From NCBI RefSeq assembly GCF_020740795.1, contig NC_067294.1, positions 5,766,001 to 5,830,000 of the forward strand: DNA of 64,000 nt, given 5' to 3'. Below the pieces are notes generated by a model. The model was not told the DNA's origin and did no database searches. It saw nothing but the letters and a program-made list of their open reading frames with translations. The translations under genes were made by a program, and so were the position numbers. The stretch is from Apus apus (Eukaryota; Chordata; Aves; Apodiformes; Apodidae). This document shows, one piece after another, positions 59,332 through 64,000 of this stretch (position 1 is its first letter; every line of letters starts with the position of its first letter).

Positions 59332-62300
59332 CTGTGGGGGAAAGAGAGGATGGAGTTGGTAAGGTGACTTGCAAGACCTCCCAAAAAGCCCAGGCTGCTT
59401 TTGCTATGCCCATTATAACCTCCACTGCCCCCACAGTGCTTTTTTGGGCTGCTGTGGCTCTGTGGGGTGGACCTGTGCCTCCCTCAGACACAAGGGCTCT
59501 CTGCAACACCCCACAACCACCCTTGGCCCTCACCTTTCTCTGCACCCAGCTTGAGCATGTCTACCCCAGAGAAGATCATCTCCTCCGGCTCCGCAGTGGT
59601 GGCAGAAGCAGCGGTGACATCTGCAGAGGGAGGGCAGGAGGTGGGTGTGGGACCCCTGGGCTGCCCCATCGCCCCCACCCCTCAGAGCAGCAGGGGAGAG
59701 CCTGTGCCCACCCCCTGAGCCACGCATTTTGGGGGCAAGGGGGCTCGTGGATAACCTTGACTGCATGTCTCTACTCTCAGTGCAGCTCACCAAGGAGGGC
59801 TGGGGATTTTAGGGTCCCCTCCAACCCTAACATGCTGGCACCAAGAGGGGTGTGGGACACTGGCTGCAGCTGGGCCCTCTCCTCCCTAATCAGTAGCCAA
59901 ACAGGGGGCAACATCCATGGGTGCTGCTTGCTCCTCTCCTCCATCCCTTCCCTGGCAACCTACCAGGGCATTCCAGCTTTTCCCGAGTGGCAGTGCCCTC
60001 AATCTTAGTGCCATTTTTGTAGGAGCACCAGCAGTAGCCAGTGGAAGGATTGCACTGCTTGGGCAGGTAGTCGCCGTTCTCATCGCACCGGGGGCGGAAG
60101 TGGCCAGGATGGACCCCCTTGGAATTGGCCTCAGCCTGGCACTTAGTCTGCACTAGGGTAATAAAACAAAGGGGGAGACACTGTGAGGGCCCCAGGCCCT
60201 TCCACAGCCTCTGCAGCAGCCTTTTATCCAGAAGCAGCTAATTAAATATAAGAAGAGGACAAGCCCGGCCCAGGTGACCTTTCTAAAGCTCCATGGGCTG
60301 GCCAAGGAGTGAGGGGTTGCTGCAGTGCTCTGGATTTTCAGATATTTGCTCATCCCAAATGACCTGTGGGCAGTGGCTCTGTGTTGTTCTAAGTGACACC
60401 AATCAGAAGCTCCCCATGCAATGAAATGATCCATGAGTTTGGTGGCCTTTGAGAAGCCCCATGCTGGCACCTCCTGGGGGTGCTTTCTCCCAAAGGGCCA
60501 GTCCCCACCCTCCCCAGCTCAGCAGCCCCCATCCCCAATACCTTTCTCTGCTGGGATTGCCTTGTTGTCCTCCACCTTGGGGTTCTTGGCCATCTCAAAC
60601 AGCAGCCACTTGTGCATCCAGGATTCAAAGGCCTGTAGTAAGAGGAACCAGCATGTTAAGTGGTATGGGGTGGTGCACCACAAGGAGCCATGCTGCAAGC
60701 TCCAGCTTCGGCTAAAGATGGCTGTGAGCACCACCACCTCCCTTAGGCTGGGGGCAACTCAAGCTGGACTTTGTTTTTCCAGGTGGGCACACTCCAGTCC
60801 CTCCCCAAAGCAGGGTGCTCCTGGAAAGAGAAGAGTAGGACAGCAGCAAGCACTGACCTTCCAGTCTGCATCAGTCATGGTCTTCTTCAGACTCTTCAGG
60901 TTGTCCATCAGGTTGTCCTTCAGCTCTGGGAACATCTTCCTGGGGTCTGCTTGCTGCAGAGTGACCACCACAGTGAGACAAGGCAAAGAAAAATGAGGTG
61001 TGGGGGATGAAGCTCTGCTTGCATCAACCAGACGGGAGGCCAGGAGCTCCCACCAGCTCTGAGTGCACCAAGAGACACCAGACCCAACCAAGACACAGCT
61101 TGAAGCTGGAAGCAGAGGGTCCCATTGCCTCCTGCAGCACAGGGGCCAGCTATGGGGTGTGTAGAGGAATGGGGGAACCTTACCAGCAGCAAGTGCTTCA
61201 CTTGGTCCTCGGTTTTGTTGCTAGCAGGGGCCATGTCCTCGAGAGAAAAAGCAAAGGGGCAGAGTGAGCATGAGGACAGGCAGCAAGCCCCGAGGGCAGC
61301 AGGCAGCAGCAGTAGGCATCTCTTACCATGTCAGCTACAGATGGGGCAAGAGGCAGGACCCTCATGGCCAGGGGGGTGTTCACCATGGCCATCTTCATCT
61401 TGTTGACTGGCTTGGCACCTGTGGAGGAAAGAGCAGTGTGAGGGGTACTGGGTTGGGTGGTCCCAGGGAGACCCATCCCTTCTCCCCGCCACGCTGGTGG
61501 CTGTAGGGCTACTGACTGGCCGGCATCTTCCTCTGCAGTGCCTCCAGCTGCAGGGTCTGGGAAGTCTTGGTCAGCTTGCTGATCTGCCCGCTCTGCTGGT
61601 AGACGAAGTAGACGGTGACAGCCTGGCCGGCGATCAGCAGGGCCACCAGGATGGAGAGCACAGAGAGGCCGGCTCTGCGGCCCAGCACAGACCTGCAGGA
61701 CACCAGGAAGGAGCTCAGCCCCAGCCTTTGGCAGGAGACGTCCTCACACCCTGCTACCACTGCCCCCTCGAATCTCTCCTGCAACCCACATCGCCCCCCT
61801 CGCCCCCCCAAACACCCCCCTCCCAGGGGCTTTGCAGCCAGACACATGCAAATTCCCCACTCATAGGGGTGCAGAAGTGAAATCTCGGTGTGAAGGTCAT
61901 TCCTCTGCACCAGGGGAACCGAAACCCGTGGCAGGGGGCAAGGGGGGTGGGCACGGGTGGGTACCCGAGTGCCACAGGGGGGCTGCAGACAGGACGCTGC
62001 CAGGGGGGTTCTGGGGCACAGCAGCGCTCTGGGCATCGCCTGGGGGGGATGATGAAGCCCCCCAGAGCCCGGTCCCAGGGAGGACATGACATGTTCCATG
62101 GGATGCCAGACTGCACTCCATTTTTTTTAAATCCTGTACCAAAAGCGAGGGCGGAGGGCACCCCGAGGGTGCCACGGTGCTGCCACCGCGCTCGGGTGCC
62201 GCGGGAAGGCGAAGTCAAGCACCTCCCGGGAGGGCACCCGTGGGTGCTGCCGCCGCAGCGCAAGTCCGGAACGGGACGCGAGGCCCGCATGTCTGCCTGG

Positions 62301-62983
62301 TGACTGATGATGTCAGAGCTCCAGAGCTTCTGATTGGCTGGAAGTGTTGGGAGGGGCCGGGGTGGGGGTAGGAGTGAGGGGTGTCGTGGGGACCTGGGAC
62401 GTTGATCCCACAAAGCTGGCTGGATCGTGGATCCACACTGCGTCCCTGCCTGCCCCATGGACACACCTCGAGCCTGCCCACCCCGCAGCCCTGCTGTGCC
62501 CTCCATCCGCCCCACAGACACACCTCGAGCCTGCCCACCCCGCAGCCCTGCTGTGCCCCCCATCCGCCCCACAGACACACCTCGAGCCTGCCCACCCCGC
62601 AGCCACACTCTGTCCCCATCCACCCCATCGCCATGATTTGCACTGTCCGCCCCACAGCCCTGCTGTGCCCCCCATCTGCCCCACAGCCACACCGTGAGCC
62701 CGTCCACCCCACAGCCACGCCATGCCTCAGAGATCCAGCCACCCCCTCGCCCATCCCATAGCCATCCCGTGTCCCTTCCTGCCCCATAGCTATGCTGCAG
62801 CCCCTTCCACCCCACGGCCACGCAGCGTCCCCGCTGCTCCACATCCCCGTCGTGCCCCTTTGCCCTCCCCACGCCCCCAACATCCCCTGTGCCCCCCGTG
62901 TGCCCCCGGCAGCAGCACCTCTGGGTGGCCCCAACATTGAGGCTGCCGCGGTCGGAGATGAGGTCCCGCTGCTCCTCGGCCAT
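59327..62983 (-). CDS. CD74: Invariant chain gene (CD74), p41-type coding region in 9 exons
   Basis: CD74 (Ii) is a type II membrane protein that trimerises, fills the MHC class II groove with its CLIP segment in the ER, and carries class II to endosomes. Exons on the minus strand: 62919-62983, 61517-61692, 61327-61418, 61184-61237, 60858-60953, 60542-60632, 59964-60152, 59534-59620, 59327-59331. All junctions are GT-AG and in phase; total 855 nt, 284 residues. Order: cytosolic tail with the DLI endosomal-sorting signal ([10 protein letters not shown]), transmembrane helix ([20 protein letters not shown]), CLIP in exon 3, a glycosylation site (NKT) in exon 4, trimerisation domain in exons 5-6, thyroglobulin type-1 domain in exon 7, and a short acidic tail. 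Skipping exon 7 (189 nt, phase 1 at both ends) gives the p33 form of 221 residues. Likely induced by CIITA through the X/Y promoter upstream. Confidence 0.95.
59534..59620 (-). CDS. CD74: CD74 coding exon 8
   Basis: Reads [20 protein letters not shown], then DMLKLGAEK. Phase 1 at both ends. It corresponds in place to the acidic C-terminal tail of mammalian p33 and p41. Confidence 0.88.
59964..60152 (-). CDS. CD74: CD74 coding exon 7 (thyroglobulin type-1 domain, p41-specific)
   Basis: Reads [20 protein letters not shown] and onward through [12 protein letters not shown] and YCWC to LECP. All six domain cysteines are present in the family pattern. In mammals this domain inhibits cathepsin L. 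Phase 1 at both ends makes the exon skippable without a frameshift. Confidence 0.96.
60542..60632 (-). CDS. CD74: CD74 coding exon 6
   Basis: Reads [20 protein letters not shown], then [10 protein letters not shown], very close to mammalian FESWMHHWLLFEM of the trimerisation domain. Confidence 0.96.
60858..60953 (-). CDS. CD74: CD74 coding exon 5
   Basis: Reads [20 protein letters not shown], then [12 protein letters not shown]. It forms the start of the trimerisation domain and matches the mammalian NADP...TMETIDWK segment. Phase 0 at both ends. Confidence 0.95.
61184..61237 (-). CDS. CD74: CD74 coding exon 4
   Basis: Reads [18 protein letters not shown], with an Asn-Lys-Thr glycosylation site and a match to mammalian MTEDHVMHLL. 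Phase 0 at both ends. Confidence 0.93.
61327..61418 (-). CDS. CD74: CD74 coding exon 3 (CLIP)
   Basis: Reads [20 protein letters not shown], then [11 protein letters not shown]. The KMKMA...TPLAM core is the CLIP segment that occupies the class II groove. Compared with mammalian KMRMATPLLM there are three extra residues (MVN) before TP. Confidence 0.94.
61517..61692 (-). CDS. CD74: CD74 coding exon 2 (transmembrane)
   Basis: Reads [20 protein letters not shown], then [20 protein letters not shown] and onward to QRKMPAS. It holds the single type II transmembrane helix and the membrane-proximal stalk, including the Gln in the helix thought to aid trimer packing. Confidence 0.96.
62296..62342 (+). 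promoter_or_regulatory. MHC class II-type X1-X2-Y module inside CD74 intron 1
   Basis: X1 CCTGGTGACTGATG (62296-62309) fits CCYAGNRACNGATG with one mismatch. X2 TGATGTCA (62308-62315) is CRE-like. Y CTGATTGG (62330-62337) is the inverted CCAAT for NF-Y. Twenty bases separate X1 from CTGATTGG, the spacing I recall for HLA-DRA. The module reads on the plus strand, opposite to CD74 transcription, about 640 bases inside the gene from the start codon. RFX5, CREB and NF-Y with CIITA would be the expected binders. Confidence 0.6.
62400..62870. repeat. 57-bp minisatellite in CD74 intron 1
   Basis: Three near-identical tandem units of 57 bases, with the CCTCGAG landmark at 62466, 62523 and 62580, are followed by decayed CCCCACAGCCACxCC-type copies to about 62870. 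As 57 is 19 codons, the repeat stays open in several frames and makes spurious 19-residue protein repeats on both strands. Confidence 0.9.
62919..62983 (-). CDS. CD74: CD74 coding exon 1, with start codon
   Basis: ATG at 62983-62981. Reads [21 protein letters not shown] and two bases of the next codon. The QRDLIS motif is the leucine-type endosomal sorting signal shared with mammals. Donor GTGCTG at 62918-62913. Confidence 0.94.
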
Positions 62984-63091
62984 GGCTCCGCTCTCGGCTC
63001 CCCAGTGAGCAGTGACCGTCCCCAGTGCCCCCACTGGAAATACCCCCGGGCCTCCGCCCTGCCACCCCCGGGGGGGGGCTGAAAAAAAAAG

Positions 63092-63130
63092 CCCCATTGG
63101 CTGACAGCAGCCACATCACCTGTTGCTAGG
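63092..63130 (-). promoter_or_regulatory. CD74: CD74 proximal X/Y promoter module
   Basis: On the minus strand CCTAGCAACAGGTGATGTGG (63130-63111) contains an X1 box with one mismatch to CCYAGNRACNGATG and a partial X2. It is followed by AGCCAATGGG (CCAAT at 63100-63096), an NF-Y site. It lies 110-150 bases upstream of the CD74 start codon, as expected for a CIITA-controlled gene. I saw no clear S/W box. Confidence 0.75.
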
Positions 63131-63293
63131 CAGACCTCGGCTCAGCAGGTCTCCAGTTCACTGATAACGCCGGACGCAGCCGGGAGCACCACGGCCTCTT
63201 CACGGGCATCACTTCCCATCCCACCAGCACCAGCAGGTCATGATGCTCAGCCCGGCGACACCTGGTGTGGTGGGCACAGGAGCTTTGGTACCG
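63126..63293 (-). CDS. Unidentified candidate 3' exon upstream of CD74
   Basis: After a TGTCCCCCCCCAG acceptor the frame reads RYQSSCAHHTRCRRAEHHDL, then LVLVGWEVMPVKRPW, for 55 codons to TAG at 63128-63126. It joins in phase 0 with the candidate exon at 63476-63571. I do not recognise the product. Its Arg/Cys/His/Trp-rich composition could equally be a GC-rich chance frame. The stop codon falls inside the CD74 X box. Confidence 0.2.
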   Translation of the reverse strand, partial: RYQSSCAHHTRCRRAEHHDLLVLVGWEVMPVKRPWCSRLRPALSVNWRPAEPRSA

Positions 63294-63475
63294 CTGGGGG
63301 GGGACAGACAGGAGCTGGGATATGGGGTACAGGATACAAGAAATGGAATGTGGAGGTGGGATGAAGGAAGCAAAAGGCAACATGGGATGAAAGAGGTGGG
63401 ATGCTCCCCACACCAAAGGCTGAGCAGGACCCTCCATGGGGGCATGCCAGCAGGGGACACCCACTCCTCACTTAC

Positions 63476-63571: not shown

Positions 63572-64000
63572 CTGAAAGGGTAATGATTAAAAGCCCATCA
63601 AGTGCTTTCAGGGCCTCCTCCTTTTTGGGGCACCCCTCTCACCCTGCCCACAGTGGCTTCAGGGGGCTGAATCCCCAAACCCAAGAGAGGATAAGCAGCC
63701 CCTCAAGGTGGGTGACCCCAAAGCACCAGTAAATGTGGGGCAGACTGAGGGGCAGTGAGGGTCCCCACCTCACAGTCCCACCAGCACTATATGGGGTGAG
63801 AAAAGCCACCAACCCCCATAAAGCTGAGTTCAGGTGACTTTATACAAGGACCCAGGGGTAACACATCCCCGATGCCAGCACTGCAGCATGGGGCTTGGCC
63901 TCACAAGGCACGTCAGGTCCAGCACTGAGCTGGATCCAGCACCAGAACCCAGCACCACCATGGCCAAGGTTCAGCCAGAAGTGAAACTCGGAGTGTGAAA
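63572..64000. other. Right-edge sequence, no gene recognised
   Basis: No exon of the next expected neighbour (RPS14 in human) is recognisable. A TATAAAG on the minus strand near 63840 is the only promoter-like word. Confidence 0.6.

Follow-up and report, generated by a model that had tools for sequence, protein, structure and literature searches.

Does CD74 hold, inside its first intron, a regulatory module of major histocompatibility complex (MHC) class II type, and if so, what does it do? An initial annotation raised this question for a 64-kb stretch of the Apus apus genome (C14:5766001-5830000 of 1.10 Gb, called here the window) when it placed an X1-X2-Y module in CD74 intron 1. In mammals, RFX, CREB and NF-Y are reported to bind X1, X2 and Y and to recruit CIITA, with box order, orientation and spacing tightly kept (PMC2278383, PMC7866136, PMC4374748), and CD74 is a known CIITA target (PMC4243378). 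In the window, X1, X2 and Y lie in class II order, orientation and spacing at 62296-62339 of CD74 intron 1, on the plus strand, opposite to CD74. This module probably serves as an X1-X2-Y enhanceosome site and acts as an intron 1 enhancer that recruits CIITA.

Motif scans confirmed the boxes of the initial annotation, namely an X1 with one mismatch, an X2 resembling a cAMP response element (CRE) and a consensus Y. The 20-base gap between X1 and Y, the strand and the location within intron 1 were also as described. The published X-Y distance is 20-22 (PMC4374748), counted from box edges that may differ from those used here. Measured from the X1X2 block, ATTGG begins 17 bases further on; the same distance is 17 in the B2M promoter and 18 in the MHC class I promoters of this genome. 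The G at position 4 of X1, which was scored as the mismatch, is present in B2M and MHC class I promoters too. A CpG-rich patch adjoins the module, as had been noted: the observed/expected ratio of CpG is 0.88 in 62100-62299 versus 0.35 in 62300-62499.

We then asked how often such a module occurs. With a 20-base X1X2 consensus, the window gave three matches at up to 3 mismatches, and the intronic site has only 1. Dinucleotide shuffles of the window (n=100) gave a mean of 0.07 matches at the same threshold. The intronic Y is the sole exact match to CTGATTGGYY in the window, and at 1 mismatch there are eight matches, below the 26 expected. By an independent-base estimate, about 3e-8 composite modules with no more than 1 mismatch overall are expected per window. 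We also trained a weight matrix on three promoters, those of B2M and MHC class I and a third of class I type, and left out every CD74 site. It scored position 62296 highest in the window, at 26.5 bits; the runner-up had 15.5, and the maximum over 20 Markov sequences of window length was 22.4.

Across the 1.1-Gb genome, ACNGATGAYGTCA-N15-TGATTGG has one exact match, which is the CD74 intron site. At 1 mismatch there are two sites, one of them on a small satellite-like contig, and a control search with the gap one base shorter found none at 0 or 1 mismatch. With up to 3 mismatches allowed, the N15 pattern has 1139 sites, many of them satellite. The reversed-pattern control is lower, at 437, because a CRE-rich satellite supplies many near matches. 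This satellite is rich in CRE-like TGATGTCAT/TGACGTCAT units at about 15-base spacing and lies on small contigs such as C39, C44, C54, C63-C70 and C85-C93, and also at C5:36528040-36530546. As no other site in the genome matches X-N15-Y exactly, a chance origin of the module is very unlikely.

Promoters of the same genome served as a yardstick. B2M was located at C11:874097 and two MHC class I genes at C62:681434 and C62:708695, with TAP2 between the latter two. The B2M promoter and both MHC class I promoters have X boxes of the TCTGCCCGG type. The pattern CTGCCYRGNRMCNGRTGAYG-N{18,22}-ATTGG matched the genome exactly at five sites: the B2M promoter, the CD74 intron, the two MHC class I promoters and a class I-type site at C62:805933. 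Read backwards, it matched none. Since the CTGCCYRGNRMCNGRTGAYG pattern was fitted on the B2M, MHC class I, CD74-promoter and CD74-intron sites, recovering these is not independent, and its independent value is that no unrelated site matched.

On its own, the X part matches the genome exactly at 13 sites, and at 135 with 0-1 mismatch, compared with 9 for the control. We examined the sequence context of all 13 exact sites and of 2 among the 122 that have one mismatch. Within 55 bases downstream, 7 of the 13 have a CCAAT, in one orientation or the other: the CD74 intron, the CD74 promoter, B2M, the two MHC class I promoters, C62:805933 and C62:695043 beside TAP2. All seven fall at CD74, at B2M or on the MHC class I/TAP contig. 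The remaining six have no CCAAT within 55 bases and lie in surroundings of 37-49% GC. When X with CCAAT was sought by relaxed criteria in the class I, B2M and window sequences, weaker unrelated matches came up as well. The sequence, spacing, location and genome-wide rarity of the intronic module, and the grammar it has in common with the B2M and MHC class I promoters, are established by these results.

Two of the C62 sites have features of their own. At C62:805933 the class I-type SXY promoter precedes a signal-peptide-like frame (MEPGLVVLGVVAIVGLVVAAAM...). The minus-strand site at C62:695043, between the two MHC class I genes, combines an exact X with a forward CCAAT and a site resembling an interferon-stimulated response element (ISRE).

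The CD74 promoter departs further from the class II rule than the intronic module does. The initial annotation expected an X/Y promoter upstream of exon 1. The X box is there, with an exact X of the same-genome pattern at 63114-63133 on the minus strand, but the promoter is less canonical than expected: the CCAAT is forward and near, 10 bases past the 20-base X1X2 block and 13 past the X pattern, and no inverted CCAAT was found downstream of the promoter X block. The distance from X to the forward CCAAT is 12 at the TAP2-side site and 15 at C13:280970. As the CD74 promoter, the TAP2-side site and C13:280970 have a like arrangement, the module seems to have a second, recurring form in which the CCAAT is forward and nearer. 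C13:280970 itself is a one-mismatch X with a forward CCAAT in CpG-rich sequence and a possible further CIITA/RFX target.

The X1 starts of the intronic and promoter modules are 834 bases apart, in agreement with the pairing of opposite polarity at about 0.8 kb that was first proposed. For the looped, strongly inducible promoter that such a pairing was said to suit, a conjecture, no support emerged. Apart from TCTG and the X box, the two have no flanking homology. Inverted duplication was considered as their origin and rejected: the best local alignment scored 28, below the 31 that was the best of 200 shuffles, and was located elsewhere. About 0.9 kb upstream of the promoter X, in a stretch that extends beyond the end of the window (window 63978-64000; C14:5829978-5830039), we also observed an ISRE-like pair, GAAGTGAAAC and GAAAGTGAAAG. 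Twelve bases beyond this pair is a one-mismatch X, TTGCCTGGAAACTGGTGACG, on the minus strand with no CCAAT, a candidate interferon-responsive upstream element.

The identity of the gene is clear. A profile search matched Pfam MHC2-interact to exon 2 (E 6.4e-19), and the reading frame of exon 1 continues across its donor and the acceptor of exon 2, which confirms CD74. All features are collected in Table 1. Intron 1 also contains a 57-base tandem repeat of 4.7 copies at 62452-62716, between the module and exon 1. In addition, there is an octamer ATTTGCAT at 61846-61853 on the minus strand and, 62 bases from it, a PU.1/IRF site GGAACCGAAA at 61915-61924 that resembles an Ets-IRF composite element; since 16 motif patterns were scanned, either may be a chance match.

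Table 1. Positions of the CD74 exons, the promoter elements and the intronic module in the window.
Feature	Position	Strand	Basis
TCTG directly 5' of X1	62292-62295	+	common to CD74, B2M and MHC class I promoters of the same genome
X1 box CCTGGTGACTGATG, predicted RFX site	62296-62309	+	1 mismatch to consensus
X2 box TGATGTCA, CREB/ATF-like, overlapping the end of X1	62308-62315	+	motif match
Y box CTGATTGGCT, inverted CCAAT, predicted NF-Y site	62330-62339	+	exact match
CpG-rich patch, X1 side of module	~62150-62300		CpG observed/expected; bounds approximate
CD74 promoter X1X2 block CCTAGCAACAGGTGATGTGG	63111-63130	-	motif scan
CD74 promoter CCAAT, forward relative to X	63096-63100	-	motif scan
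S-like region, CD74 promoter	63131-63158	-	19/28 identical to the equivalent in MHC class I promoters
CD74 exon 1, coding part	62919-62983	-	in-frame reading
CD74 intron 1, 1226 bases	61693-62918	-	exon 1 donor and exon 2 acceptor in frame
CD74 exon 2, to the last whole codon tested	61518-61692	-	MHC2-interact domain

How would the module work? RFX would bind X1, CREB/ATF would bind X2, and NF-Y would bind the inverted CCAAT of Y. With the boxes in helical spacing, these factors could stack and recruit CIITA in cells that express it, such as B cells, dendritic cells and interferon-gamma-treated macrophages. The module would then act as an enhancer, independent of orientation, on the CD74 promoter some 0.8 kb from it. 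We infer factor binding, CIITA recruitment and enhancer activity from the motifs and their arrangement. The module's place in an intron and its reversed orientation to CD74 favor an enhancer role, as does the presence of enhancers in mouse Cd74 intron 1. The initial annotation had offered a CIITA-bound intronic enhancer as one role, and the same-genome grammar and the mouse precedent argue well for it. The host genome encodes at least part of the RFX complex: an RFXAP-type domain is intact over three exons.

Several points weigh against this reading. First, the S region of the intronic module is weak: without TCTG, 19% of the 24-mers in the 4-kb CD74 region score equally, although B2M also does poorly in the same pairwise-identity test (11.5%). 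Second, the direct comparison would be with class II genes, but the assembly yielded none, and class I-type promoters had to serve instead. Third, the human CIITA mark at CD74 in chromatin immunoprecipitation sequencing is proximal to the transcription start site, and the accessible text of that report names no intronic mark (PMC4243378).

On the second point, neither a C1-set search (18 matches) nor a chicken-like class II beta-2 query (7 matches at 34-40% identity) turned up an intact class II A or B gene. Searches with PF00969 and PF00993 gave no match here nor in 14 control genomes, and are uninformative on class II absence. We attribute the missing class II genes to an assembly gap. At C1:3978971-3979204 there is a decayed C1-set domain that has two TAG stops and resembles MHC class II beta-2.

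The S region also bears on which protein would be recruited. The S box determines NLRC5 specificity in mouse, as reported in PMC4374748. Upstream of the intronic X1, a class I-type S (GCAACCT at -23) is unrecognisable; the similarity is weak in a test that scores B2M poorly too. Because the NLRC5-determining S box is unrecognisable and the Y is of class II form, CIITA is the likelier partner of the intronic module.

Other explanations have to be weighed against a CIITA-recruiting enhancer. The one that survives best, though unlikely, is that the module serves a downstream, sense-direction promoter in intron 1 and gives a CD74 transcript with an altered N-terminus. Mouse Cd74 is reported to have such an interferon-inducible intronic promoter, boosted by a downstream intronic enhancer, with an altered N-terminus as the outcome (PMC2883540). 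In the window, the module has the CpG-rich patch on its CD74-sense side, and TTTAAA occurs at 62121-62131. The frame of exon 2 stays open for 144 codons into the intron (61518-62126, minus strand), with in-frame ATGs at 62099, 62087, 62036 and 61847. However, an open frame of this length has a probability of 0.077 in local Markov sequence.

It is improbable that the module is a chance or relic match, or an X box that a different RFX protein (RFX1-3) uses independently of CIITA. The weak S region favors this explanation, as do the six exact X sites with no nearby CCAAT, which may be chance; one of the six, C5:75221847, even has the identical 20 bases. Against it, the full X-X2-Y combination is unique genome-wide and lies within a known CIITA target gene.

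Least probable is the antisense promoter, also suggested in the initial annotation, with a plus-strand transcript starting at about 62350-62450: the plus-strand X1-X2-Y polarity does match that of the B2M and MHC class I modules, in which Y precedes the start codon, and a GC-box-like sequence occurs at 62353-62367, but there is no TATA in 61693-63400, the CpG ratio drops on the antisense side to the 0.35 given above, and the path enters the 57-base tandem repeat and then runs back through exon 1. A cap tag alone would not separate an enhancer from an antisense promoter, as active enhancers commonly yield short bidirectional RNAs.

If the module is an enhancer of the proposed kind, an intronic CIITA enhancer of CD74 exists outside mammals, and co-regulation of the invariant chain with class II through more than one enhanceosome is an old or repeatedly evolved design. 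A bolder view is possible, though we hold it doubtful: that in this lineage CD74 has its main CIITA platform in the intronic module and not at the promoter. The promoter would have drifted to a forward, near CCAAT, as also seen beside TAP2, and the intron would have kept the full class II X1-X2-Y. Together with the X-plus-ISRE about 0.9 kb upstream, the two might then form a three-part CIITA/interferon control unit parallel to that of mouse, kept since the amniote ancestor or evolved twice. In practical terms, the same-genome pattern (a TCTGCCYRG... X followed by ATTGG at 17-18 or by a nearer forward CCAAT) should be a sharp finder of CIITA/NLRC5 targets in bird-like genomes, because the 7 of 13 exact X sites with a downstream CCAAT are all at CD74, B2M or the MHC class I/TAP contig.

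Three known systems resemble the module. With the MHC class II SXY promoters and the distal S'-Y'/XL enhancers it has in common the order, orientation and spacing of X1, X2 and the inverted-CCAAT Y. It differs from class II SXY in its weak S region, in its place in an intron of a non-MHC gene and in lying on the strand opposite to that gene. The MHC class I/B2M SXY promoters, a type associated with NLRC5/CIITA, have in this genome the same TCTGCCYGG X-box start and ATTGG at 17-18 bases past X1X2. In contrast, the Y of the CD74 intron is CTGATTGG, class II-like and not CCATTGG, and its X2 is TGATGTCA.

The third likeness is to mouse Cd74 intron 1. No avian report of a CD74 intronic enhancer was found in the open literature, and most subscription papers fall outside that coverage. 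Two enhancers lie in mouse intron 1, and each is said to interact with CIITA in vivo by PMC2883540, which cites Moore 1998 and Krawczyk 2004. One of them was published as homologous to class II promoter elements, according to the title of Moore 1998 as cited in PMC2883540. As far as these sources describe them, the mouse enhancers and the module agree in gene, intron, class II-like elements and a position upstream of a possible intronic promoter, and the two may be akin. They differ in that CIITA association is reported in mouse and is predicted from sequence here, and in that the mouse intron has 3897 bases and two enhancers whereas the present one is 1226 bases long with a single full module. 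The element is of a kind known from mouse, and the CD74 intron module appears to be a new instance of it in a bird.

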